DNA of 64,000 nt from Anaerofilum hominis (GTDB lineage Bacteria; Bacillota; Clostridia; Oscillospirales; Ruminococcaceae), in NCBI RefSeq assembly GCF_014287275.1, contig NZ_JACONZ010000001.1:62001-126000 (forward strand), written 5' to 3'. Positions 44,768 through 59,153 of this stretch are shown piece by piece (the first letter of the stretch is position 1; every line of letters begins with the position of its first letter). Made by a program: the position numbers and the translations under genes. The notes under the pieces are model-generated. The model saw only the letters and a list, made by a program, of their open reading frames with translations, was not told the DNA's origin and made no database searches.

Positions 44768-47700
44768 TCACTCCACGAGGATATTATACGGGAACTGCGC
44801 GTCCCCCAATTGAAAGACAAGGCGGTAAGTGCCGGGCGCGGTGCCCGCGGGCACCGTGACGGCGGCCGCGGCGCTGCGCGGATCATCGCCCGCAGCGCCT
44901 GTGACGCGCGCCTCCCACTGCGGCGCGAGGCTGACGTAACCGTCGGCTGTTTTGCGCTGGGGATCGACCGTGATCTCTCCCGGCCCTCTGCCGGTCAACT
45001 GAAAGCGCAGCTCTCCCCCGGCTTCGCCATTGACCACACGGCTTTGACCGTCGGACAGTTCCACCTTGAGGGCGTATTCGTACACATTCACCACAAGCCC
45101 TGCGGCAGCCGCCTCGCTCACGCTGTCCGCCAAAGGATAAGACGGATCTTCCGGCGCGCTGCAAAGGTCCGCTTTCAGCTGATAGTCGCCTGCCGGCAGA
45201 CCGGTGACTGAAATGGTATGGCTGCCGTTTTTGATGCCGTCAAAAGCCGCAAAGCTGCTGCGCACCGCGCTGGGCATGCGCCCGTCCAGCGTGATGCCAA
45301 GGCCTGCCGGAAAATCGATGCGGCTGCCGCTGCCGTCCAGCAGGGACAGCGCTATCACGCTGTTGTCCGCAGCGCCGGACACCGCCGCGGCGGCTGAGAT
45401 CTCTCCCTGGCCCGCTTGCGCGGTCAGGGAAAGGGCCCCGGCGGAGCGGGGCGCGGTCCGCGTGACGGTCACTGCCGTCTTGTCAATCTCCGCGCCGTTT
45501 TGCGTCAGCCGGATCACAAGGCCGGAGGAGGCAGCGGCCTCCTGCGGAAATTCCACGCAGAGCTGATACTGGATCTCCCGCGCGGTCTGGGCGTTTTCAT
45601 TTTCAAAAGTTCCGTGCACAACCGTTCCCATTTGATAAAAGTCGGTAGAGCGGACGCTTGCCGCCCCGACCTCCGGCACGATATAGTAAAAAAAGCGCGG
45701 TTTATCTGCGTGGCTCGGGCAGATGTCCAGCATAGTCAATTTTGTCCCCTTGGGCAGAGGCTCGGAAAATTGCAGGGTAAGCGGCGTCTCGGCGCTGTTG
45801 GGGATATAAAAGAACCCGTAAGACACGGTGAAAGCCCCGTTTGCCGCCGTTGTCACCGCTGTCGAGATCGGCACGCCGTCTTTGGTGCTCAGCCGCTCCA
45901 AAATCTTGCCCTCAGCGGAATAGATGACGGTGGTCTCAATGGTGAAAGGGATGAGATCGCTCTCCAGCCTGTCATAGTTGCCGGTCTCTTCTACCACAGC
46001 CTTTACATAATAGCTTCCCGCCTCCGTGGGCTCCGTTGTGAGAGGGCTGCTAAGATCAGCCGCCGTATAATAGGAATAGATGACTTCTCCCCACTTTGCC
46101 TGGGCATTCGGCCGCAGAGCCGTTCCATACTGGACGCTGGGGCAGGTCAGGTCGGTGAGCCACTGGTTCGTCCCTTTGGTCACCGCAAAGGTGTTGCTTC
46201 CGCTGATCTCCTCCAGCCCGTCCGCGGCGATCTTCCAATAGATGGTCGAGCTGCCGACATCCGTCCTGACGGGCGGACTGTCCTGCCAGCGGACCTGATC
46301 GGTGCTGTAGGAGACCTTTGCCCCCTCGGCCGGATAGGCCACCGTTACCCGGAAGATATGCTCTTCGCCCGTATACTCCGCTGCATAATCGGCGGCCCTG
46401 TAGGAAATGGCCCCCTCTTTTCCCAGCGTAATCTCCAGGCTGCCGTGCGCGGCGGCCGGCATGATGAGGAGTGCTTCGGCCGTCCGTTCATACTCCCCGC
46501 CGCCCAGCGGCGTTCCGTCGCGCTTCACAGTCTGTACGCCGGTGTCCGCGGGAAGCGTGATGCTCAGGCCGCCGTTTTCAGAAATGGCATATGCCGGGGC
46601 CTGCATATCACTGGGAAGCAGATAGCTGACCGCGCAGGCGGTAAAGACGGTTTTTGCGGACACCGAGTGGGCCGCGTCCGCCGCCGTGAGCCTGCTTCCG
46701 TCGTGGTAGCCCGCCAGCGTCCCCTCCGTCAGCAGGACCGAATAGGGCAGTGCGCCGCTCAGCGAGCTTGTCGTATAGGTATAGCTTTTTGCCGTGATCT
46801 GTTTGTTCTCTCCCCCCGATAAGGTCAGAAAACCGCCGTCTTTGGTGATGTTGACCGCGCCGCTGCCGCCGATAGGAGAAAAACGGGTGTCGGAGGAACT
46901 GATCTCCAGAGAGGCTGTGCCGCTGACCGACAGATCCAGCTCCGCCCCTTCCTGCACCAAAATGGCAGAGTGGCCCGCAGACGCAAGGTTATTATTAAAG
47001 CTGGACGCAGTGACGCTGAGCTTGCCGCCGTCTATCTGTATCACATTGCCGCTTCTCTGGGCGACCAGCCGGTCGATCATGACCGCATGCGTTCCGCCTG
47101 TCACAACAAGCAGACGAGAGGTGGGCAGGCCCCCGGAGGTGAGGAAAAGATCTCCCGTATATCCCGACAGCTTGTAGCCGCCGATGGTGACGCTTTCACT
47201 GTCTACCGCCGCGTTGGCGGTAGAGATATCCAGCGACAGGCGCGGCGTTGCGCTTCCCGCCCGGGTGACGAACAGCAGCTCCGTATTGGAAGTGACGGTC
47301 AGCCCATAGGCATAGCTGCCGCTTTTGGCGCTTTCAGCAGGTAAAAGAGTCATTGAGGTATCTGCAGAGCGGTAGGCGTCCACCGTATAGCAGTGCCCGC
47401 TGCCGTCATATGTTTTTGCCTGTACCCAAAAGGACAGCACATCGCCTGCCGGCACGGTCTGGGTCCCCATAAGCGGGATCGTCATGTCCGCATCGGCGTA
47501 CACCGTAAAACGGTCGTCATAGGGAAAATGTACGGAATAATAAACCTTTGCGGAGTTGTATTTCAAAATGCCCGCATATTTCGCCAGGACGCTGCCCGTA
47601 AATCCATTGCCGCCCGCGCTCGCCCCCGTCAATTCTGTATTTTCCGGCAGCCATAAATACAGGGTACCGCTGCCGTCGGTGCGCACGTCTTTCATTCCAT

Positions 47701-50700
47701 AGCCGGCCACGCTGATCGTGTCCACGGCGGTGTCCGCCATCCGCCGGTCCGCGTTGTACAGGGTGGCGCTGGTGAGATAAACATTGGCAAAACCGTTCGT
47801 GGGCGTTTTGGACATCATGGCGTTGAGGCTGCCGCCGGTCACTGTGATCGCAGCGCCCGCGTACCCCATCGTCTCGGAAAACCCGCCGCCGATCGCGCCG
47901 TTGGACGCCACGGTGCCGCCGGAGATCGCGACCTCGGCGCCGCCCCCGGCCACGTCGATGGAGTTTCCGCCGCCGATGCCGGTGCCGCCGGTGACAGTGG
48001 CAAGGATGTCTCCCCCCGATATCCGGACCTTCGCATATCCGCCGGCCTGTCTTGAAGACCCGCCTGCGCCGATGGCGACCCCGGAAGAGCTTATGTTTTC
48101 CGCCTGCACGATACCGCCGGAGATCGTGATCTCCGCGTCAGCGCCCACAGCCACGGTACCGCTGCCGCTGCCGATCGCGGGCGCGTTCCCGTTCTGGGTC
48201 GCGCTGATCTTGCCCCCGGTGATAAAGATCTCCGCAAAGCCGTTGCTGCCGCCGCCGATGCACGCTTCCGCGCCGCTGTTTCTGGTCGTGATGGTGCCGC
48301 CGGCGATGGTCAGCCCCGTGGCCGTGGACTTGTCTCCGGTGGCGCCGATGCAGCTGAAGCGGCCTTTCTGTGTGGCGTCGATGGTCAGCGAGCCGTCCAG
48401 CGCGCCGTCTCCCGCCGCGCTGGTGATCTTCAGCGTGGAGGCCGACCGCCCCGCTCCCGTCCCATGGCTATCCTCATTGATCGTATAATAGCAAATGGTG
48501 TTCAGCCTGTTTTCACCGCTTAAATAAAGCGTGACATGCTTTTCGGCCCCGGGGTAGGCGGGGATGTAAATGCTGCTGTCCACATCGCGGTTGTCGTCGT
48601 TGCCCGTGTTGTGAAAAGTTCTGTCTACATTGATGGAGTCCAGCACGACCTGAAAAGTCAAACCATTTCCCTGGAATGTGATGGTATTGGTCGTTGCGCT
48701 GACGGCAGAATCGCTCTGCCGGATGATATAGCAGGTCTGCGGGTCGTGCGTCCCGGTCACCGGCTGCCCCGCGTCGTCCGTGCCCGAATAGGTCTCTCCC
48801 AGCACGACCGGTCCTTTTGCAAGGTCAAAGAGCACGGTGCCGCTGGTCAGATCGGCGCTTGCTCCGCTTTTCACCTCGCCGGTAAAGACATAGATGCCCG
48901 ACCGTGCCGCCGTGACGGCGACATTATCCGGCAGCCAAAGATACACCGTGCCGGTCTGATCGGTCTTTACATCCGCCGCGCCGTAGACCGCGCCGGACGA
49001 CAGGGTAAACGAGTCGACGGCCAGGCCTGCCTGCGGCGCGCCGTTGCTTTTCAACGTGACCGCGGTGCGCTGTACCTGCGCTGCACCGTCACAGGTCGGC
49101 GTGCCGGTCACCGTACCGTCGACGCTGCCGCCGGTGATGCGGACCGAGGCGGCGGCATAGCTCTGTTCTTTTTCACTGTAGCCGCTGCCGATCGCCTTTT
49201 TACCCCCCGCTGTCGCGATGACCGTGCCGCCGCTGATGGAGATATCGGCCGTTCCGGCGGCCGCATCAGTCGAGCCGCCCGCGCCGATCGCGACGCCGCC
49301 CGCCCCCTGATTGGCCGCAGCGACAGTGCCGCCGGTGATCACGATCCTGGCGTCCGCGCCCGCAGCGGTGCCGCCGCTGCCGCTGCCGATCGCGGGGGCG
49401 TTGCCGGTGGCCTGGGTCGCGGTGATGAAACCGCCGGTGATAAAGATCTCCGCATACCCGTTGCTGCCGCCGCCGATCGCGGCTTCATACTCGTTGTTGA
49501 CGGCGGTGATGGTGCCGCCGGCCAGGGTCAGCCCGGTGGCCGGAGATCTTGTGCCCGTGCCGCCGATGCAGGTGTAACGGCTGCGCGCCGTCGCGTCGAT
49601 CGTCAAAGAGCCTTCCTCTGACCCGTCACCCGCCGCGCTGGTGATCTTCAGGGTCGAGGCGGAGACCTGCGTTCCGCTTGTATTGTCGGCTGAATGCGTA
49701 TAGTAAGCGATATTGTCCAGGACGTTGCTGCCGCTCAAATACAGGGTGACGTGCTTTTCACAGCCCTCATAGGCCGGGATAAAAATGCTGCTGTTCGCCT
49801 CGATGTCAGCGTCAGTCGTATCCTTACCGGCAAACGTCCTGCTGATGTTGACGCCAGCCAGTTCCACCCGGAAACTCAGGCCGTCCCCCTCAAATTTGAT
49901 GTTGTTCTCCGTGGCAGCCGCGCCGCTCTGGGTCACGACATAGTAATTGTCCGCCTGATGCGCCCCGGTCACCGCCGCCCCGCTGCTGTCCCGGCCCGAA
50001 TAATTCGCCCCCAGCGTGACGGGTCCCTGAGACAGATCAAAAACGATCGTCTCCCCGGCTGCGGCTTTTGCGGCAATGTAGAGGGAAAAGCTCTCAGCGG
50101 CAAACTTTACCGTGTTTTCCGCCAGGCTTTGAGGTGCAAGGGTCTCCACAAAATCAAACCCGCTGGTCTGGTCATTCTCTTTCAGGTGAAGTATGCTCAC
50201 ATCCCCGCTGGGCAGGTTTTCCACGTTGCGGATATTCACAGTGACACTTTCACCGTATTCTTCCGGCTGGTACTTCTCGCCGTCCACCAGCACAGCGATA
50301 TCCAGCGCAAAAAAGATCTCCGGCGCATCGCTGCCCAGAGCCCCTGATACCAGCTCCAGCAGGTCCGGCGTCAGTTCGGCTTCCTGCGCAAAGATCTGGG
50401 CGCTTTCCGGCAGGCTGCCGCTGATCTCCACCAGCTGTGTGCCTGCGGTGCGGGAGATGGTCTGCTGTTTCAAACTGCGGGGCAGCGTCTCCCACTGTGC
50501 GGCCAGACCGTCCTGCGGCAGCGCGCAAAAACTGTTGGCGGCCAGCACCGCCGTCTCGCTGCCCTCCGCTTTCCAGCCTGTAAAGCGATAGCCGGTCCGC
50601 GCGTCTCCCGGCTTTTTCAAGCCGGTCTTTTCATAAGCGGGCAAAAACGCGCCTTTCCCGGTGACCGGCATCGCATACGCGGCGCGATTCCCGAAGCCGT

Positions 50701-51652
50701 CGTCAAGGGGAACGACCGTCCAGGACAAAATTTCCGCGTAGCCTGCGCCGGCCGCCGCCGCAATAAAGCTCTGGTTGCGGCTTTCGGCACATTCAAACAC
50801 ACCAAGCCGGCCGGGATAAAAGATCTCTTCCCCTATCTCCTGCTGTGTCACGGGGGACTTTGCCGGTTGGGGCCCGGCGCCTGCCGGCGCCGGCTCTGCG
50901 GGGATGTCAAGCCCCTGAGGCTCCGCATCTGCCGCCGCAGGCGCTGCGCCAGCGTCCTGACCCGGCGCCGTACCGGCATCCGCGCCCGTGCCGCCCTGCG
51001 GGTCCGCGGACGGGGCCGTCTGCGGCGCTGTTTCCGGCGCATTTTCGGAAACAGACGGCGTTTCCTCCGGCAGTGCCATCTCCGCCCCCGCCACGGCGGT
51101 CGGCTGCGGCAAAGCGGTCGGTTCCGCCACGGCGGTCGGCTCAGGTACAGCGGACGGCTCCGGGGCTGCCGTCGGCTCAGATGCGGTCTCGTCCTGAGAA
51201 GAACTGTCCATCGCGGTAAAGTGGTTATAGACATAGGTGAAATCCGGGGCTGCGGCGGCGCTGTCCCCGGAAAACGCCTTTTCGCCGATGCGGACGACCG
51301 AGGCGGGCAGTATCAGTGTATCGGACAAATTTTCGCAGTTATAAAACAGATAATCGCCGACCGAAGCGACGCCATCAGCGATCTCGATCTGCCGGATGAG
51401 CTGCCGCTCTCCATAAAACGGCGCGCGGGCGCCATCGGCATCCCGGTAATCATAGGTATCCCCGGTACCGCGGACCGAGAGGGTCCCATCGCCGGAAAGC
51501 GAAGCCGTCACATGATCGCCGATCTGATAGACCGTTTGCGGGTTCAGGGCGTAAGAGGTAAAAATATCCCACTGGAAAAAAGACAGAACAACGAACAGCG
51601 CCGTCAGAAACGCGGCGCCTCTTTTTAACTTTTTGTGATATGCTTTCGGCAT
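44768..51652 (-). CDS. giant secreted adhesin-like surface protein (2294 residues)
   Basis: The start 51652 (MPKAYHKKLKRG) follows GGGAGG. Residues 1-36 are a Sec signal peptide. About 60-120 are a BspA-type leucine-rich repeat (FYNCENLSDTLILPASV). About 130-260 are Pro/Glu/Ala-rich linkers with EPTA repeats. About 300-390 include an InlB-like beta-repeat (GYRFTGWKAEG). Two tandem units (about 535-935 and 938-1355) of glycine-rich parallel-beta-helix-like sequence (IGSGSG, ITGGTV) follow. Then come MBG/YDG-like and Ig-like domains to the C-terminus. There is no LPXTG motif or membrane anchor. It is the last gene of the SipW/TasA-like operon and is probably a matrix-attached adhesin. Confidence 0.88.
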   Translation of the reverse strand: MPKAYHKKLKRGAAFLTALFVVLSFFQWDIFTSYALNPQTVYQIGDHVTASLSGDGTLSVRGTGDTYDYRDADGARAPFYGERQLIRQIEIADGVASVGDYLFYNCENLSDTLILPASVVRIGEKAFSGDSAAAAPDFTYVYNHFTAMDSSSQDETASEPTAAPEPSAVPEPTAVAEPTALPQPTAVAGAEMALPEETPSVSENAPETAPQTAPSADPQGGTGADAGTAPGQDAGAAPAAADAEPQGLDIPAEPAPAGAGPQPAKSPVTQQEIGEEIFYPGRLGVFECAESRNQSFIAAAAGAGYAEILSWTVVPLDDGFGNRAAYAMPVTGKGAFLPAYEKTGLKKPGDARTGYRFTGWKAEGSETAVLAANSFCALPQDGLAAQWETLPRSLKQQTISRTAGTQLVEISGSLPESAQIFAQEAELTPDLLELVSGALGSDAPEIFFALDIAVLVDGEKYQPEEYGESVTVNIRNVENLPSGDVSILHLKENDQTSGFDFVETLAPQSLAENTVKFAAESFSLYIAAKAAAGETIVFDLSQGPVTLGANYSGRDSSGAAVTGAHQADNYYVVTQSGAAATENNIKFEGDGLSFRVELAGVNISRTFAGKDTTDADIEANSSIFIPAYEGCEKHVTLYLSGSNVLDNIAYYTHSADNTSGTQVSASTLKITSAAGDGSEEGSLTIDATARSRYTCIGGTGTRSPATGLTLAGGTITAVNNEYEAAIGGGSNGYAEIFITGGFITATQATGNAPAIGSGSGGTAAGADARIVITGGTVAAANQGAGGVAIGAGGSTDAAAGTADISISGGTVIATAGGKKAIGSGYSEKEQSYAAASVRITGGSVDGTVTGTPTCDGAAQVQRTAVTLKSNGAPQAGLAVDSFTLSSGAVYGAADVKTDQTGTVYLWLPDNVAVTAARSGIYVFTGEVKSGASADLTSGTVLFDLAKGPVVLGETYSGTDDAGQPVTGTHDPQTCYIIRQSDSAVSATTNTITFQGNGLTFQVVLDSINVDRTFHNTGNDDNRDVDSSIYIPAYPGAEKHVTLYLSGENRLNTICYYTINEDSHGTGAGRSASTLKITSAAGDGALDGSLTIDATQKGRFSCIGATGDKSTATGLTIAGGTITTRNSGAEACIGGGSNGFAEIFITGGKISATQNGNAPAIGSGSGTVAVGADAEITISGGIVQAENISSSGVAIGAGGSSRQAGGYAKVRISGGDILATVTGGTGIGGGNSIDVAGGGAEVAISGGTVASNGAIGGGFSETMGYAGAAITVTGGSLNAMMSKTPTNGFANVYLTSATLYNADRRMADTAVDTISVAGYGMKDVRTDGSGTLYLWLPENTELTGASAGGNGFTGSVLAKYAGILKYNSAKVYYSVHFPYDDRFTVYADADMTIPLMGTQTVPAGDVLSFWVQAKTYDGSGHCYTVDAYRSADTSMTLLPAESAKSGSYAYGLTVTSNTELLFVTRAGSATPRLSLDISTANAAVDSESVTIGGYKLSGYTGDLFLTSGGLPTSRLLVVTGGTHAVMIDRLVAQRSGNVIQIDGGKLSVTASSFNNNLASAGHSAILVQEGAELDLSVSGTASLEISSSDTRFSPIGGSGAVNITKDGGFLTLSGGENKQITAKSYTYTTSSLSGALPYSVLLTEGTLAGYHDGSRLTAADAAHSVSAKTVFTACAVSYLLPSDMQAPAYAISENGGLSITLPADTGVQTVKRDGTPLGGGEYERTAEALLIMPAAAHGSLEITLGKEGAISYRAADYAAEYTGEEHIFRVTVAYPAEGAKVSYSTDQVRWQDSPPVRTDVGSSTIYWKIAADGLEEISGSNTFAVTKGTNQWLTDLTCPSVQYGTALRPNAQAKWGEVIYSYYTAADLSSPLTTEPTEAGSYYVKAVVEETGNYDRLESDLIPFTIETTVIYSAEGKILERLSTKDGVPISTAVTTAANGAFTVSYGFFYIPNSAETPLTLQFSEPLPKGTKLTMLDICPSHADKPRFFYYIVPEVGAASVRSTDFYQMGTVVHGTFENENAQTAREIQYQLCVEFPQEAAASSGLVIRLTQNGAEIDKTAVTVTRTAPRSAGALSLTAQAGQGEISAAAAVSGAADNSVIALSLLDGSGSRIDFPAGLGITLDGRMPSAVRSSFAAFDGIKNGSHTISVTGLPAGDYQLKADLCSAPEDPSYPLADSVSEAAAAGLVVNVYEYALKVELSDGQSRVVNGEAGGELRFQLTGRGPGEITVDPQRKTADGYVSLAPQWEARVTGAAGDDPRSAAAAVTVPAGTAPGTYRLVFQLGDAQFPYNILVE
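47590..50053 (-). repeat. two tandem ~1.2-kb coding repeats inside the adhesin gene
   Basis: The unit beginning VFDLSQGPVTLG (about 50053-48850) is repeated as LFDLAKGPVVLG (about 48840-47590). Matching landmarks run along both copies: EKHVTLYLSG, ASTLKITSAAGDG, AIGGGSNG/CIGGGSNG, NAPAIGSGSG, VAIGAGGS and LYLWLP. The copies have diverged, so this is an old duplication, but domain gain or loss by recombination is possible. Confidence 0.85.
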
Positions 51653-51678
51653 CGTATCACCTCCCGGCTGCGGAAAAA

Positions 51679-52422
51679 TCAAGGATCGGCAAGCGCAATG
51701 GAGCCGCCCTCTAAGAGCTTTTCGCCGACCGCAGGATGATCTGCAAGCGTACTTTCAAAGAAAACAAGAGAGTAATGGGCGTGGGGAGAAAGCCCTGACA
51801 AGGTCCCGCTTTCGCCTGACGTCCAGCCTGCCATCAGTTCGTTTGTGCTGTCAGGTACAAGATCTGCGCCGTAAATGATGGTAATGTCCTGGACCTTCGC
51901 CCCGATATAGAGATCCAGCACGAGATAATATCCCTGGTCGGTGATCCTGTATACCGTGTTTTCTCCGGGGTCCTGAAAAGTGAAAGAGGCGGACAAAGTC
52001 TTTTGATAGGGGGAAGCTGCGGCGGCAAAGATAGTCTTTGTCTCCCCCGCAGTCCCGGACAGGTCATACTCATCGCTGCTCTGCGCGCCGCCCTTTAAAG
52101 TGCGCGGCTCGGCACTTCCCTTTTCGCCAATGGTATAGCTGATATCCGCGCCTGTGGCGTTCAGCCCGTCATGATTGGCCACCCGGATATTGACTGAGCC
52201 GGTGTACACCGTATATGCGGCCCCGCCCTCTTTCAGGTAATCGCTCTCAAAATAAAAATCAGCGGCCGTCGCGATCTGTCCCTCTTCCCGCTGCAGCACG
52301 TAGCGGGAAAAGGTGACTGCGCTGCCGGACAGCAGCAAGATGCCGATGATCACCAGCACGGCGGGCAGCCGGTGATCCCTCTTCTTTTTTTTGCTGTGAA
52401 ACTTATATCTGCGGCGTTCCAT
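51679..52422 (-). CDS. SipW-dependent-type exported protein
   Basis: The 247-residue protein has a very basic N-terminus, a hydrophobic segment (about residues 20-40, AVLVIIGILLLSGSAVTFSRY) and an extracytoplasmic beta-rich domain. The SRY just after the hydrophobic stretch resembles SipW-processed camelysin/TasA-like signal peptides. GGGGAGG precedes the start. It lies between the 224-residue TasA-like gene and the giant adhesin in the same operon. No enzymatic motif is visible; a minor fibre or anchor subunit is an inference. Confidence 0.72.
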   Translation of the reverse strand: MERRRYKFHSKKKKRDHRLPAVLVIIGILLLSGSAVTFSRYVLQREEGQIATAADFYFESDYLKEGGAAYTVYTGSVNIRVANHDGLNATGADISYTIGEKGSAEPRTLKGGAQSSDEYDLSGTAGETKTIFAAAASPYQKTLSASFTFQDPGENTVYRITDQGYYLVLDLYIGAKVQDITIIYGADLVPDSTNELMAGWTSGESGTLSGLSPHAHYSLVFFESTLADHPAVGEKLLEGGSIALADP

Positions 52423-52454: not shown

Positions 52455-52985
52455 TCAGGCCTGCGCCGGAAGAGACTGCTTTGCATTTATGACCAGCGTC
52501 ACCAGATCGATCTCCCGGGCGTAATCTTCAGCCGTCTTTTCTTTCGGCCAGCTCACAGTCAAAATATAGGTGTGAGCGGTCTGCTGCGCCGCGGGGAAAA
52601 GACCGCCCGTCCACACGCGCACGCCCTCACCCGCCTTTACACGGCCTGCCTCTTCGCCTCCGTCGGCAGCCAGCGCATAGGTGAGGGGCAGATTTCCCGT
52701 CGTCTCCACAGCGATCTCATACTCCTGGGCCACTTCACTGACGCGGCCGCCGGAGTAGTTGGCCACCTGAAACGAAAACGTTCTCACATCCCCGGGCTTC
52801 ATGCCGCTGACATCGATCGCCTCCTGCGAGGTGAGATCCAGCGCAGCGGCGGCGACTGCCGCTGTGCCGCTGCCGGACACCGGGGCGGAAAAGCGGGAAT
52901 AAGAGAGGCCGCCCACAGCGGCGAACACGGCGCTGAGACAAAGCGCATAGCCCAAAAGCCTGGCTGGTGTCAGATGTTTCTTCAT
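52455..52985 (-). CDS. TasA/camelysin-like SipW-dependent exported protein
   Basis: The 176-residue protein starts at 52985 (MKKHLTPARLLGYALC) with a four-base overlap on the preceding signal peptidase gene. A signal sequence (about residues 7-28, ending GGLSYSRFSA) leads into a single beta-sandwich-like domain with FSFQVANYSGGRVSEVAQEYEIAVETTGNLPLTYAL. That pattern is typical of TasA/camelysin-like proteins. Direct overlap with a SipW-type peptidase argues that it is its substrate. It lacks any LPXTG anchor. Confidence 0.76.
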   Translation of the reverse strand: MKKHLTPARLLGYALCLSAVFAAVGGLSYSRFSAPVSGSGTAAVAAAALDLTSQEAIDVSGMKPGDVRTFSFQVANYSGGRVSEVAQEYEIAVETTGNLPLTYALAADGGEEAGRVKAGEGVRVWTGGLFPAAQQTAHTYILTVSWPKEKTAEDYAREIDLVTLVINAKQSLPAQA

Positions 52986-53527
52986 TTTTCCCGCTCCTCT
53001 CCTTTCCTTTGTCGCTTCTGCCGCGGCCCGGTCAGCAGCAGGGCTCCAAGGCCCGCAGTCAGCACGAGCAAAAGTCCCGCAGGGGTGCGCAGGAAAAGAA
53101 CGACCCTGCCCGCTGCAGGCAGCCTGCACACCACCCGCCCCCTGATCTGCTGCGGCCGCAAAAGCGCCCCGTCCGCGGCGCTGTTCGCATCTCCCTTTGT
53201 GCGAAACCCATCCTCCTCGCGGCCAATGATCCGATGGGTGATCAATACGCCCCCGTCGGAAAAGGTGACGATATCTCCCGGCTCATAGCGGTCCTCCTGG
53301 CGGATGACCAGCAGATCCCCGGCTGAAAAAGCCGGCTCCATGCTGCCCGAAAGGACGGTCACCGCGGCATATCCGAACAGGGCGGGAAGCGGTTCTTTCC
53401 TGACGAACCTTTCATAGAGAAGCCACAGAGCCGCTGAAAGCGCCAGCAGCGCGATGCCCACGGCAAAGCCGCGGCTGATTTTTTTCAAAGCGCCCCGCCT
53501 TTTGACGCCCGCCCGCTTATTCCGCAT
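52982..53527 (-). CDS. second SipW-type (Ser/His) signal peptidase
   Basis: The 181-residue membrane protein has helices at about residues 18-40 and 150-168 around an extracytoplasmic domain. It contains the catalytic serine in TVLSGSMEPAF and histidine in LITHRIIG, followed by RTKGDANSAADG. This is the ER/SipW-type Ser/His set, with no catalytic lysine. It overlaps the Ser-rich protein gene upstream by 11 bases and the TasA-like gene downstream by four. Having two SipW-type enzymes in one operon is unusual and suggests separate substrate sets. Confidence 0.87.
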   Translation of the reverse strand: MRNKRAGVKRRGALKKISRGFAVGIALLALSAALWLLYERFVRKEPLPALFGYAAVTVLSGSMEPAFSAGDLLVIRQEDRYEPGDIVTFSDGGVLITHRIIGREEDGFRTKGDANSAADGALLRPQQIRGRVVCRLPAAGRVVLFLRTPAGLLLVLTAGLGALLLTGPRQKRQRKGEEREK

Positions 53528-55091
53528 GGATCTTCAGGCTCACTTTATAAGTCCGGTCCTGTGCAGCGCCCGCGGCTGTGTCGGCGCTGTCATCGCCGCC
53601 CTCGTACGACCATTCCCATTCGATCTTCAGGACTGCCGGTTCCTGCCCGATCGTGCCGCCGCCAAGGCGCAGGGCCTGCCCCTTTTGCAGGGTCTGCCAC
53701 CCACCCGCAGCGCCGTCCGGCAGGACAAGCCGAAAACGCATGGGCAGATGGAAACTGGATTCTGCGACCGTGATCGTATAGGTCAAATCAGTCTCGCGGC
53801 TGTTGACGAGCCGAAACTGGTAAGTCCCGCGCGCCCCGGGCTGAAGATCGCCGTTTTCAGCCGTGCCCGTGCGGTCGCGGAACAGGTCGATCTCACTTGC
53901 GCTCTCCCACGGGCTCCAGCCGCCGGGGGCATCCTGTTCCGCTGTCAGCTTTCCCTTGCCGTCGTCCTCCGGTTCCGAGGAGGAAGACGGCGGGACCGGC
54001 GTCTGGGCCGGAGCAGAAGAAGATGTGTTGGAGGAGGACGAGCCCGAAGACGACGAGCCTGAAGAGGACGAGCCGGCGGAAGAGGATGTACTGGAAGAGG
54101 AACCACCGCCGGAGGGCCCCGGCCCCAAACCGCTGCCCGGCGCGCCGGCGGAGCCGCCGCCAGGGCTGCCATCAGGCTCTCTCTGTCCGCCTGGGCGGCT
54201 CTGCGCGCCCCCCTCGGGGGCCGGGCCGCCCGCGCCGATCTGGTAGGGCGTCTGGGACGAAACGATCTCGCCGTCCGGCAGGCGGATGTCCCCCGCCGAG
54301 ATCACTGTCCCGTCCGGCAGGCGAACGCCGCCCTCCGCTTCCACCCGCTCCCCGCCGCCCGCTTCCAGCCCGTCGGCGGGGATGGGGGCGGCCGTGTTGT
54401 CCGGCAGGACCAGCCATCCCGATGCGACCACCGTGCCGTCGGTCAGGATCACGGTGCCGGAGGGCAGAACGATCACGCCCTTTGCAGCGTCTATCCCGTT
54501 TCCATCTGCAAAGAGCGTCCCATCGTCTTTCAGCGCCGCGGCGGTTTTGGGGATGAGCTTCAGCTCCTCCCCGTCCCCGCGCAGTTCTATGGCCAGCTCA
54601 ACAAAGCGCACCTCTGCGGAAAGCTGTACTGCATACCGGTCCTCGCCGGCCAGCGCCACCTCCACAGGCTGCGCACCGCCCCGGCTGACCGTGACGCCGC
54701 AGGAGGCAAGCACGGCTCCCTCTGCGTCCAGCACGGAAAAGGTGTGCTCGCCCAAATCGACGTTATCGTAAAAAAAGCGGCCCTGGGCATCCGTCCGGGT
54801 CATGCGCGGCTCGCTGTGCAGCTCGACCACGCTGTCCGCGCAGGCCGTGCCGTCCGCATACCGCACCTGCCCCGCAAGGTGGACGGCCCGGCCCCCATCC
54901 TGCCCGATGACGATGGTATCAAGGATCTGCCCGCGGTGGGGGTCCGTGTTGCGGCCAATGAGAAATCCGACAAGGACCGACGAAAAAACCGCCAACAGCG
55001 CCAGCACAAGCAGCAGAAACCAACGCATGCGCGCATTGCCTTTTGTCTTTTCCGGCGAAGGGCCGCGCGCGTCCTGTTCTTCCTCTCTCAT
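53517..55091 (-). CDS. membrane-anchored Ser-rich surface protein with TasA-like C-terminal domain
   Basis: The 524-residue protein has a charged N-terminus and a signal anchor (about residues 22-46). A carboxypeptidase-regulatory-like beta domain follows (about 68-136, TRTDAQGRFFYDNVDLGEHTFSV). Next come LPDGTVI-type beta repeats (about 205-280), a Gly/Pro then Ser-rich low-complexity linker (about 290-380), and a C-terminal domain (about 395-524) with GDLQPGARGTYQFRLVN resembling TasA/camelysin domains. GGAGGG precedes the start. It could tether fibres to the membrane (inference). The serine tract is encoded by near-repeats at 54000-54110. Confidence 0.78.
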   Translation of the reverse strand: MREEEQDARGPSPEKTKGNARMRWFLLLVLALLAVFSSVLVGFLIGRNTDPHRGQILDTIVIGQDGGRAVHLAGQVRYADGTACADSVVELHSEPRMTRTDAQGRFFYDNVDLGEHTFSVLDAEGAVLASCGVTVSRGGAQPVEVALAGEDRYAVQLSAEVRFVELAIELRGDGEELKLIPKTAAALKDDGTLFADGNGIDAAKGVIVLPSGTVILTDGTVVASGWLVLPDNTAAPIPADGLEAGGGERVEAEGGVRLPDGTVISAGDIRLPDGEIVSSQTPYQIGAGGPAPEGGAQSRPGGQREPDGSPGGGSAGAPGSGLGPGPSGGGSSSSTSSSAGSSSSGSSSSGSSSSNTSSSAPAQTPVPPSSSSEPEDDGKGKLTAEQDAPGGWSPWESASEIDLFRDRTGTAENGDLQPGARGTYQFRLVNSRETDLTYTITVAESSFHLPMRFRLVLPDGAAGGWQTLQKGQALRLGGGTIGQEPAVLKIEWEWSYEGGDDSADTAAGAAQDRTYKVSLKIHAE

Positions 55092-55217: not shown

Positions 55218-55832
55218 TTAAGCCGTGGGGGTATCCGTGGGGACGACCTGTTCCACCTTGCAGGTGATATCCAGCTTTGCGGTGTCCAGAGTTTCCTTGA
55301 CGCCAAGCGCGGTGTCAGCTGCGGCGGCACTGTCAGGGTCCCATCTCCAATGGAGATAGAACGTCTGGGCCGCGCTGCCCACCGCGACTTCCGTATCCGT
55401 CGGCTTCAAAGCCGTTGCCGCTGCCCATGCACCGTCTGCTGGATCGCTAGCATCGGTCGTGATCGCGTACTGCAGCGGAATATTTCCAGTATTGGTTTCC
55501 GCGATTTTGAAAGTAGGCTTGAGGGCGACCTCACCATTATTCTGCAGTGTGATCGCAACCTTGCCGCTGGTGCCGGGCGCCACGACGGCGGATGAGGCGC
55601 TTACTTTGTCGTTGTTATAAGCCTTACTGAAAAGGGCGGAAAGATCGATCTTCTGGCTGCCAGTTTGCTCGGTGGCGCCGTTCAAATCAAAGGCGAATTT
55701 TGCGACGGTGGCCGTCGCATCGCCGGTGACATCAGCGGTGTACTTTGCCAGCGTCCCGCCCATCAGGCAGGTGCTGATCAGGGTGAGCGCCAGGGCCAGA
55801 ACACCCAGGCGGCCCGCAGCTTTTTTCATCAT
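55218..55832 (-). CDS. TasA/camelysin-like major fibre protein candidate
   Basis: The 204-residue protein has a SipW-type signal peptide (MMKKAAGRLGVLALALTL, then STCLMGGTLAKYT). A beta-sandwich domain rich in Ala, Thr and Asp with few aromatics follows; it includes VVAPGTSGKVAITLQNNGEVALKPTFKI and NTGNIPLQYAI. These are hallmarks of SipW-dependent biofilm-matrix proteins (TasA, camelysin, BsaA). AAGGAGG gives it the strongest ribosome-binding site in the operon. It directly follows the first SipW-type peptidase. I infer it is the major secreted subunit. Confidence 0.83.
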   Translation of the reverse strand: MMKKAAGRLGVLALALTLISTCLMGGTLAKYTADVTGDATATVAKFAFDLNGATEQTGSQKIDLSALFSKAYNNDKVSASSAVVAPGTSGKVAITLQNNGEVALKPTFKIAETNTGNIPLQYAITTDASDPADGAWAAATALKPTDTEVAVGSAAQTFYLHWRWDPDSAAAADTALGVKETLDTAKLDITCKVEQVVPTDTPTA

Positions 55833-56118: not shown

Positions 56119-56742
56119 TTACTCTTCTCCCGCGCGGTCCCGGGCCGCTTTCAGGGCATTCAGCTCCGCTTCCAGCGCGTCGGCCCGGCTTTTTTCCTTT
56201 TTATCAGCTCTCCAGCGCGCAGCCATGTCCCAAAAGATCAACAGCAGGACGGGACAGACGATAAAAACGACCATGCCGGTGGTGCTGGACAGAAAAAGTA
56301 CAAAATTACCGGCCCCACCGATGCGGCCGCCCCGCCATATTCCCTGTACCTGCTCCGGGCGGACCGTTTCTCTGTCCTCGACACTGTTGGCGTCGCCCCG
56401 CGTGACGTATCTTATTTCGCCGTTCTCATCCTGCTCCAGCCGCACGACCCGGTGGGTCACCGCCTGCCCGGAGGCCAAGTAGCAGATCACATCCCCCTCT
56501 TTCAAGGTCTGGGGGTCTGCTTTATGTAAAAAGATCAGGTCCCCCGTCATAAAGGTATCCTCCATCGACCCGGAAAGGACCGCCACCGGCTTGATGCCGA
56601 ACGCGCCCGGGATCTCCTGAGGATGCAGATAAGTATTGGCAATGATGATCACATTGATCACGATGATCGGCAAAAGCAGGACGCACAGCAACAGGTTGAG
56701 GACCCGAAAAAGGTTTTTGGCCTTTGTGGGCGTTTTTGTCAT
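56119..56742 (-). CDS. sipW: SipW-type (Ser/His) signal peptidase, first gene of the surface operon
   Basis: The 207-residue membrane protein has helices at about residues 12-35 and 150-172 and a basic, coiled-coil-like C-terminal tail (about 175-207). The extracytoplasmic domain carries the catalytic serine in VAVLSGSMEDTFMTGD and the histidine in AVTHRVVRL, followed by TRGDANSVEDRE. The Ser/His set without lysine places it with Bacillus SipW, which matures TasA-type proteins. GGGGGAG precedes the start. It is the first gene of the seven-gene leftward operon and lies 260 bases from the putative invertible promoter. Confidence 0.9.
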   Translation of the reverse strand: MTKTPTKAKNLFRVLNLLLCVLLLPIIVINVIIIANTYLHPQEIPGAFGIKPVAVLSGSMEDTFMTGDLIFLHKADPQTLKEGDVICYLASGQAVTHRVVRLEQDENGEIRYVTRGDANSVEDRETVRPEQVQGIWRGGRIGGAGNFVLFLSSTTGMVVFIVCPVLLLIFWDMAARWRADKKEKSRADALEAELNALKAARDRAGEE

Positions 56743-57002
56743 CCAGCTCCCCCCTTTTGATTCAGAATAAAAGCGAATGTCCGGCAGCCGGCCTGCACGC
56801 CCCGGGCCGTTCCCTCAGGCTGTGGGCCGCCGGCTGCCGGCACTTCAAGAAGTCGTTCCCTCTGGTCTCGCATCCTTTGCAGCGGCTTCGCTTTGCGGCG
56901 GGTCCCCCGCATGTTTCCGCGCGTCCGTCTTTTGCCGGACGCATCTGCGCAAAGCGTGCCCGGGGCACACCATGGCCCCGCGGCCCGGTCGCCTGCCCGC
57001 AC
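56743..57002 (-). promoter_or_regulatory. GC-rich fixed leader between the invertible segment and sipW
   Basis: These 260 bases lie outside the invertible segment. They contain a long 12-bp inverted repeat (CCGGCAGCCGGC at 56781-56792 with GCCGGCTGCCGG at 56829-56840), followed on the minus strand by GACATTCGCTTTTATT. This could act as an attenuator. A smaller CGGGGC/GCCCCG dyad lies near 56951-56970. I see no -35/-10 pair, so the operon seems to lack a fixed promoter. Confidence 0.5.
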
Positions 57003-57021
57003 CACATAATTTGTATTATGT
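57003..57021. repeat. left inverted repeat of the invertible segment
   Basis: CACATAATTTGTATTATGT is a perfect inverted copy of 57276-57294. It is itself an imperfect palindrome (ACATAAT, TTGT, ATTATGT), as expected of a tyrosine-recombinase core site with two recombinase arms. Confidence 0.85.
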
Positions 57022-57209
57022 AGTACCCCTAAGCCCGGTGGCGGCGGGAACAATACATAAATGCCAAAATGAGGAAAAAAATATGGAACAAAAAATTTTG
57101 GGCCGTTTTTTGCTCTGCAGGCGAGGCAGCAAAAACAGAGTCAGGACCCCCTGGCTCTATTGAAGTTTACATTTCAGGTCATATTTCACATCATGATCTC
57201 ACTATAAAC

Positions 57210-57238
57210 TTGATTTTTGTACCCATTTCATGCATAAT
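57210..57238 (+). promoter_or_regulatory. promoter inside the invertible segment, currently facing away from the operon
   Basis: TTGATT (57210-57215) and CATAAT (57233-57238) are separated by 17 bases. In this orientation transcription would run into the recombinase gene as antisense RNA. The minus strand of the segment has only a weak TATAGT without a -35 box. Confidence 0.65.
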
Positions 57239-57275
57239 ATATAAAAAAGCGAACGCCCATCCGGGAAGATACACC

Positions 57276-57294
57276 ACATAATACAAATTATGTG
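57276..57294. repeat. right inverted repeat of the invertible segment
   Basis: ACATAATACAAATTATGTG is the exact reverse complement of 57003-57021. It ends four bases before the stop codon of the recombinase gene. Confidence 0.85.
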
Positions 57295-57298
57295 ATTG

Positions 57299-58153
57299 TC
57301 AGGTGCTGCGTGCCAGAAGCCCCAGTCGGGAGACCAGTCTTTTTTCTTCCCTGCCGGTGGTCGCAGTATAGATCCTTGTCGTCTCCACACTGGAATGTCC
57401 CAGCACATCGGCCAGCCGCACGATGTCTTTTTTCAGCCGGTAATAGGTCAGGGCAAACAGGTGTCGCAGGTTATGCGGGAATACTTTTTGCGCCGCTACC
57501 CGGGCCTGCAGGCAAAGGCGTTTCATCTCCGCCCAAATATTGCTGCGGTCCAAAACGCGGCCGGTGCGGGTGACAAAAACCGGCCCGGCACTGATCCGCC
57601 GCCGCGCGCAATAGTCCCGCAGCTGCCGGATAAGTTCAGGAGGCAGAAAGACCACCCTCTCCTTGCCCTTGCTGCGCACACGGACAGCGCCCTCACGCAG
57701 GGCCTGCGCCGTGACGAACCGATGTTCGCTCACCCGCAGCCCGGTGCTGCACAGCGTCTGCATCAACAGATACAGGCGCTCGTTTTTTTTGTTCTGCGCC
57801 GCTGCCAGCAGGCGGCGGTATTCCTCTTTCGACAGTTCTTTCTCCGCATGCCGGAAATTGGCGCGCTGTACCTTGAGCAGTTTTACCTGACAGTCGCCGC
57901 AGCCCAGAAAGGCCAAAAAGCGATTGACGGCAACCAGCATCGAGTTGGCGCTTGCCGTTTTATAATTTTCCGTCACATGGGCTTTATAGTCCATCACCCG
58001 CTCTTTTGTCAGCCATTTGTCCGGGGGCAGAAAAAAATAAAAGGCGCGGGCGTCACGCACATATTTTTCCACCGTTTTCGAACTGCGCTCCTCACGGACC
58101 AAATGGTCGCGGAAGCTTTCCAGCAGCGCGATATCCAGCAGTTGTCCATTCAT
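57299..58153 (-). CDS. tyrosine recombinase, probable invertase of the adjacent segment
   Basis: The 284-residue protein has a core-binding domain (about residues 5-95) and a catalytic domain. The catalytic set is Arg in STGLRVSEH, Lys in RSKGKERVV, HxxR in PHNLRHLFA, His in GHSSVETTRIY and the Tyr nucleophile. It is compact, like XerC/D and the invertases of phase-variable switches, with no N-terminal arm-binding domain as in phage integrases. GGAGG precedes the start. Its stop lies four bases from an inverted repeat, and there are no phage genes nearby, so a dedicated switch recombinase is the best reading. Confidence 0.87.
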   Translation of the reverse strand: MNGQLLDIALLESFRDHLVREERSSKTVEKYVRDARAFYFFLPPDKWLTKERVMDYKAHVTENYKTASANSMLVAVNRFLAFLGCGDCQVKLLKVQRANFRHAEKELSKEEYRRLLAAAQNKKNERLYLLMQTLCSTGLRVSEHRFVTAQALREGAVRVRSKGKERVVFLPPELIRQLRDYCARRRISAGPVFVTRTGRVLDRSNIWAEMKRLCLQARVAAQKVFPHNLRHLFALTYYRLKKDIVRLADVLGHSSVETTRIYTATTGREEKRLVSRLGLLARST

Positions 58154-58927: not shown

Positions 58928-58980
58928 TTGCGCGGCAACCGGGCGATCAGCCAAAAAAAATAGCCTTACGGCTATTTTTT
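58928..58980 (-). repeat. dispersed stem-loop repeat, copy B1
   Basis: Read leftward it gives AAAAAATAGCC-GTAA-GGCTATTTT, then GGCTGATCGCCCGGTTGCC and GCGCAA. This matches copy A at 30061-30112 over about 52 bases with few changes. The shared TTTTATTGC/GAGCAA module lies directly before it (58981-59002), whereas at copy A it lies after. Confidence 0.75.
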
Positions 58981-59030
58981 TGTTGCTCTGCAATAAAAGC
59001 TTTTTAATGGTCCGCCCCTCGTCCCTGTAG

Positions 59031-59153
59031 GATAACCGGGGCAATGGCCGAACAATAAGCCGCAAAGCTATTTTTAAACAATGACTTATTTCTATTCGCC
59101 GCGGCCTGAGGACAGGCCGCATGGCTACAAACAATAGCCTCCGGCTATTGTTT
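59031..59153 (-). repeat. two degenerate stem-loop repeats, copies B2 and B3
   Basis: B2 (59031-59075) reads AAAAATAGC, then GCGGCTTATTGTTCGGCCATT and CCCCGGTT. B3 (59114-59153) reads AACAATAGCC-GGA-GGCTATTGTT, then GTAGCCAT and GCGGCC. Both keep the order of stem-loop then GGCCAT-like block seen in copies A and B1. B3 begins at the stop codon of the gene ending at 59152, so this cluster forms its 3' untranslated region and may terminate it. Confidence 0.6.

Follow-up and report, generated by a model that had tools for sequence, protein, structure and literature searches.

A recombinase-adjacent inverted-repeat cassette in Anaerofilum hominis is a member of a large family of predicted clostridial promoter-inversion switches

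The fimS/FimB-FimE system of E. coli and the Mpi promoters of Bacteroides are known cases in which a tyrosine recombinase inverts a promoter in front of surface genes; both differ from the cassette described here in their recombinases and their repeats. The RecV switches of Clostridioides difficile (cwpV, PMC2784873; Cdi1-7, PMC5903667), as described in the available parts of these reports, resemble it in having an Xer-like tyrosine recombinase and inverted repeats of approximately 20 bp around a segment of approximately 200 bp ahead of surface genes. According to the same parts, recV is not near cwpV, whereas here the recombinase gene adjoins the segment, and most RecV repeats are mutually unrelated, whereas here the arms are common to many genomes. 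Inverton group 139 of the hCom2 gut strains (32 of 33 in Clostridia) is linked to a tyrosine recombinase (invertase group 35), and reads show orientation shifts for it (PMC11892184, available portions). Like the present family, this group comprises short clostridial invertons beside a tyrosine recombinase, and the repeats of two examples named there start 231 and 241 bp apart, which falls within the 149-372 bp (median 261) found in our family. Neither a variable centre nor a SipW operon is mentioned for group 139 in the available portions of that report. Compared by description, not by repeat motif, the family of our cassette is probably inverton group 139.

The window is the whole 64,000-nucleotide stretch of the A. 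hominis genome that was analysed (contig NZ_JACONZ010000001.1, positions 62,001 to 126,000). The sequence at 57003-57021, CACATAATTTGTATTATGT, is a perfect 19-nt inverted repeat of 57276-57294; when one mismatch is allowed, the repeats grow to 22 nt (57003-57024 and 57273-57294). The pair has an outer span of 292 bp. Both repeats are 7-4-7 dyads (ACATAAT-TTGT-ATTATGT) that can fold as hairpins in a computed fold, and with up to 2 mismatches this dyad occurs in just these two places in the whole window (0.03 expected). We refer to 57003..57021 (CACATAAT-TTGT-ATTATGT) as the gene-side site and to 57276..57294 as the recombinase-side site; the predicted invertible segment between them (57022..57275) is so named from the family, in which homologous segments occur in either orientation. 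A scan of the window for perfect inverted repeats of at least 16 nt with copies within 1 kb gives four pairs. Three of these, including a 22-nt repeat, are hairpins of 45-55 nt overall; the 57003/57276 pair alone encloses a long interior. The segment has a 39% G+C content, compared with 60% for the window, and this is the lowest value of all 292-nt stretches sampled each 10 nt across the window. Scans of the window against Rfam and for tRNAs gave no match.

The recombinase gene (57299..58153, minus strand) has an intact reading frame, and its 284-aa product matches PF00589 and PF02899 above cut-off. The gene ends 4 bases from the recombinase-side site, and this placement is typical: the left site starts no more than 70 nt past the recombinase stop in 93 of 96 family pairs. 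The sequence-only reading had described perfect 19-bp inverted repeats bounding an A/T-rich segment of 292 bp, each repeat itself a dyad and one of them four bases from the stop of a compact tyrosine recombinase gene, and every element of this description was confirmed. R140, K162, H227, R230, H253 and Y262, which we take to be the catalytic residues, are invariant across 33 aligned sequences (that of the window among them). The top NCBIfam matches are XerA, XerD and XerC models, all below cut-off, and the top PDB matches are an XerC-like protein, XerA and XerD. As a Xer/dif dimer-resolution enzyme the protein falls well short of the XerC and XerD models, scoring 111.5 and 107.9 bits against cut-offs of 329.6 and 335.15, and a serine DNA invertase (Hin/Gin) domain was not found in it, the domain search giving PF00589 and PF02899 only. 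The window has two of the features expected of an inverton: short inverted repeats around a small segment, and an adjoining PF00589 gene of the clade that the site tracks. We infer that this adjoining recombinase acts on the two sites. With high confidence, we predict that it recombines them and that the segment flips, likely switching a predicted seven-gene SipW-type operon ON and OFF.

Relatives of the recombinase were collected as 19 loci from a contig search, then from the 16 genomes holding them, and then from one order (295 genomes, with a recombinase match at E<=1e-50 in 82). Matches that were mostly weak or cut off were left out (7/43 from the 16 genomes and 15/120 from the 295-genome order), as were identical recombinases, giving 138 loci (window included) with recombinase identities to the window of 40-57%. 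New matches from the order of G016 (196 genomes) and the family of G179 (22 genomes) are outside all counts, and no closer relative of the window was present in either. Pairs were counted in the 117 distinct loci, that of the window among them, that have 500 nt or more of downstream sequence. At least one site is present in 106 of these, and 96 have an inverted pair with reverse-complementary centres just downstream of the recombinase, compared with 1 of 2,340 control shuffles and 0 of 128 upstream flanks. A further 13 of the remaining 21 loci have an inverted pair with changed arms (scores of 13-30, compared with 10 or less in 21 shuffles), leaving 8 of the 117 with no good pair. Among loci on early-ending contigs, a site is still seen in 19 of 21. 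The sequence-only reading had named, as counting against a switch, a lack of the repeats and segment in close relatives that keep the recombinase and operon; among the relatives covered here, the cassette is kept in 96 to 109 of the 117 loci.

Viral contigs (IMG/VR) were analysed separately: 33 of 40 loci were covered (L201-L207 were left out), none of them among the 138. The pair is present in 0 of 18 viral-contig relatives at 34-39% identity and in 9 of the 15 other viral loci, which indicates that the site goes with this recombinase clade. The nine viral or proviral contigs with both a recombinase and an inverted pair (9/33) are L168, L169, L170, L172, L173, L174, L176, L179 and L191; the cassette on these may be phage-carried, or may be trimmed host DNA.

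The core family site is ACATAAT-NNNN-ATTATGT, with a longer consensus of ACnACATAAT-NNNN-ATTATGTnGT (family motif ACATAATNNNNATTATGT). Information at the four central positions is 0.05-0.15 bit each, and 63 distinct centres occur among 96 loci when read from the recombinase side. Within a locus, the centres of the outermost two sites, a comparison not conditioned on a match, agree in 87 of 91 loci; of the four with mismatched centres, three are direct repeats on early-ending contigs. Palindromic centres are absent (0/96; 6.3% expected; p = 0.002). Recombinase distance is correlated more strongly with arm distance (r 0.34) than with centre distance (r 0.16), each with p 0.0005 by permutation. 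From these patterns, the conserved arms would be the stretch bound by the recombinase; the centre would lie within the strand-exchange stretch and need only equal that of its partner, its asymmetry enforcing inversion, not deletion. Spacer variants of Cre-LoxP (PMC10850332, available parts) are alike in that the arms are constant, the spacer influences which sites are partners and its asymmetry sets direction; they differ in being engineered, whereas here the variation of the centre is natural and its effect putative. The same parts note that a spacer change alone does not always yield orthogonality (PMC10850332).

Centres strictly private to each cassette of a genome were considered and rejected, as 9 of 58 within-genome pairs (24 genomes) share a centre, compared with 0.8% expected at random. 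Several loci can occur in one genome with mostly different centres: G001 holds L001, L020, L047, L153, L154 and L155, and G016 holds L019, L037, L048, L156 and L157. Two or three direct site copies, spaced 33-108 nt, are present on one flank in 15 of the 138 loci (L003, L009, L016, L047, L054, L061, L076, L080, L102, L108, L112, L113, L118, L119 and L155), and L016 has three copies per side, 34 nt apart. Small deletions between such copies may therefore occur too.

Opposite orientations of the segment were found among relatives. L050 and L051, whose recombinases are 82% identical in DNA, are collinear to position 847, inverted at 824-1095 and collinear again from 1071; the sites, at 823 and 1074, coincide with the inversion breakpoints. 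L051 and L052 are collinear along their full length, so that L050 is opposite to both beside collinear recombinases. The segment is likewise reversed, with breakpoints at the sites, in L137 relative to L141 and L144 (copies within one genome) and in L005 relative to L017 and L014. All of these differences are between species or paralogues, not inside one clone. The search for a flipped segment in related genomes, which the sequence-only reading had proposed as a check, is thus positive at the level of the family. Among viral loci, no flipped near-identical locus was found: the recombinases of L174/L184 and of L172/L173 are identical over their overlap and the orientation is the same. Contig ends within 400 nt of the recombinase are commoner on the switch side (18/118) than on the other side (6/118), an excess that is expected if assemblies break where orientations mix.

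These comparisons bear on whether the window pair could be a dead relic, i.e. a formerly active pair now locked in this organism. A flipped copy of the window's own segment was not seen among its relatives (40-57% identity), and the promoter-like match in the window is weak (see below). This reading is nevertheless very unlikely, as the recombinase frame is intact, the family-invariant residues are all kept and the sites are perfect. The cassette in the window is well formed and belongs to a large promoter-inversion family, and the promoter-inversion architecture claimed for the window from its own letters is supported in kind by the site pairs of the family and by the flipped homologous segments; a flip at the window locus itself, with its effect on the operon, would follow by analogy.

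Promoters were scored on both strands of 95 segments (window included) with a sigma-A matrix; L001 was excluded because of a run of N. The better strand has a mean score of 12.6, compared with 8.6 for shuffled sequences, and the other strand 7.2 compared with 6.6. Most family segments have one strong outward promoter-like match close to one end, the -10 being a median of 65 nt from the outer end at which it points. This match points toward the recombinase (OFF) in 72 segments and toward the downstream gene (ON) in 18, with 5 undecided. Among 25 homologous segment pairs of at least 90 nt, orientation and promoter polarity are both the same in 20 and both different in 4, with 1 pair undecided, so that the two properties are concordant in all 24 decided pairs. 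When short matches are added, 3 of 38 pairs are discordant (lengths of 47-75 nt); these three may sit in internal hairpins.

In the window, the promoter-like sequence TTGATT-17-CATAAT (57210..57238, plus strand) is directed toward the recombinase end as read and is 55 nt from the outer end, a position like that in the family. Its score of 9.3 is weak: the best match scores at least 9 in 37% of shuffles. A consensus promoter scan found three matches near the segment, compared with 1.0 expected. The window would be OFF as read, like 72 of the 90 decided segments. In the proposed mechanism, the recombinase would bind the conserved arms of both sites and exchange strands through the 4-bp centre, the asymmetry of which would make the outcome an inversion and not a deletion. 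In the orientation read here, the operon would be OFF, with the promoter directed at the recombinase and a terminator-like hairpin directed at the operon; once the segment has flipped, 56742-44768 would be transcribed from the promoter (ON).

The terminator-like element, a hairpin with a T-run at 57131..57162 (minus strand, toward the operon as read), is weak: 57125-57165 folds at -12.9 kcal/mol, a value equalled by 20 of 200 shuffles. The scan lists no such element for the opposite strand of the segment, where it would face the operon after inversion. Across the 95 family segments, terminator-like elements are found on the sense strand in 26 and on the reverse strand in 18, compared with 4.7% per strand in shuffles. 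In cwpV, according to the available parts of its report, a terminator is turned and the promoter is outside the segment (PMC2784873). On that precedent, inversion in the window could turn the hairpin and gate read-through from a promoter that lies at the recombinase or before it. The window has the weakly folding hairpin facing the operon, and promoter-like matches both inside the segment and at its edge, where an equally scoring minus-strand match (57316-57287), with its -10 inside the recombinase-side site and its -35 inside the gene, would face the operon now. Most family segments, however, carry a strong outward promoter-like match whose polarity flips along with the segment, and a terminator-like element is present on the sense strand of just 26 of 95; we therefore regard a terminator switch of this type as unlikely. 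Turning of a promoter and of a terminator could also act in combination.

The dyads themselves could be operators or terminators rather than crossover sites, given that they fold as hairpins and that a U-run lies outward of the dyad on the recombinase side in 34 of 95 loci, compared with 11 of 95 on the gene side. This is highly improbable: operators need no reverse-complementary centres, yet 87 of 91 loci have matching ones, the segments between the sites are found flipped, and a terminator role would be an extra one, the window copy having no U-run past its recombinase-side dyad. As crossover sites, the recombinase-side copies may double in some loci as terminators for the OFF-phase promoter. 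Loci with a U-run past this site include L009, L019 and L086. Antisense feedback, in which the OFF promoter would read into the 3' end of the recombinase gene, was also considered and is weakened in the family: a terminator-like element lies between promoter and recombinase end in 38 of 72 OFF loci, compared with 4.4% in shuffles. Since the window copy lacks the U-run, antisense transcription of the recombinase may still occur there.

Downstream of the switch, the gene-side repeat is approximately 260 nt ahead of the start (56742) of seven minus-strand ORFs reaching 44768, the intervening leader (56743..57002, minus strand) being defined by coordinates and the ORF list. All seven are on the minus strand. 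The first (56119..56742, 207 aa) encodes a signal peptidase I of SipW type by TIGR02228 (90.2 of 51.85, above cut-off), with a match to SipW model NF046067 (E 8.6e-28) that is below the cut-off of that model. It is followed by an exported-type protein of 204 aa (55218..55832) with no Pfam or NCBIfam match and 196 homologues, almost all unnamed; "TasA-like" is our own label for this protein, with no family match behind the name. Next are a 524-aa protein (53517..55091; PF13620 below cut-off) and a second signal peptidase I of SipW type (52982..53527, 181 aa), which passes the cut-offs of PF00717 and TIGR02228 but not that of the SipW model. A camelysin-like protein of 224 aa (52455..53129; PF12389 E 3e-4, just below cut-off) overlaps the preceding ORF and has an uncertain start codon. 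The last two are a 247-aa protein (51679..52422), known as an ORF only, and a large protein of 2304 aa with an LRR stretch (44768..51682; PF13306 E 1e-5, below cut-off). The claim that one repeat faces the leader of a seven-gene surface operon therefore holds for the seven-ORF run, while "surface" is a prediction, because the SipW, camelysin and LRR matches are below cut-off.

In two other genomes, the cassette (L158 and L159) precedes runs with two SipW-type peptidases approximately 2.3 kb apart, compared with 3.2 kb in the window. L158 has two ORFs between the peptidases, as in the window, and the last protein of its run has 1538 aa with Listeria-Bacteroides repeats. In the parts of the open-licence literature available, neither a variable, non-palindromic centre nor an invertible SipW operon was found. 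The letters of the site motif gave no relevant match in a literature search as judged from titles and abstract openings, and for SipW or TasA with inversion neither name was among the matches listed.

The first downstream ORF was taken as the longest early ORF, one per cassette, which is a crude choice (L136 gave none). Among the 95 obtained (window included), 6 match SipW-type models, 5 CpsB/CapC and 10 DUF4379; SPFH, zinc-ribbon, helicase-associated, LRR and SLH proteins also occur, as do a few restriction-like ones. We tentatively suggest, with a little less than even confidence, a widespread clostridial cassette in which one shared pair of arms picks the enzyme and a freely drifting, never-palindromic centre picks the partner, with the asymmetry of the centre turning every event into an inversion. 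In this picture, the cassette would stand before capsule, SipW-type, adhesin and restriction-like genes and be mostly OFF, and the recombinase-side site would double as a terminator in approximately one third of loci, shielding the recombinase from the OFF-phase promoter. If so, a recombinase-linked switch would turn a SipW-type, possibly fibre-forming surface operon ON and OFF, and a single explicit site would be tied to one recombinase clade, making such switches searchable by a single pattern, beyond read mapping alone. The matching, non-palindromic centres would also make testable a natural use of the tyrosine-recombinase spacer as a key to partner and direction.

On the other side of the recombinase gene, past its start, three related repeats are present at 58954-59152. 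The copies are 64-72% alike and lie 96 and 77 nt apart, and the first is a perfect 12-nt hairpin with a T-run.
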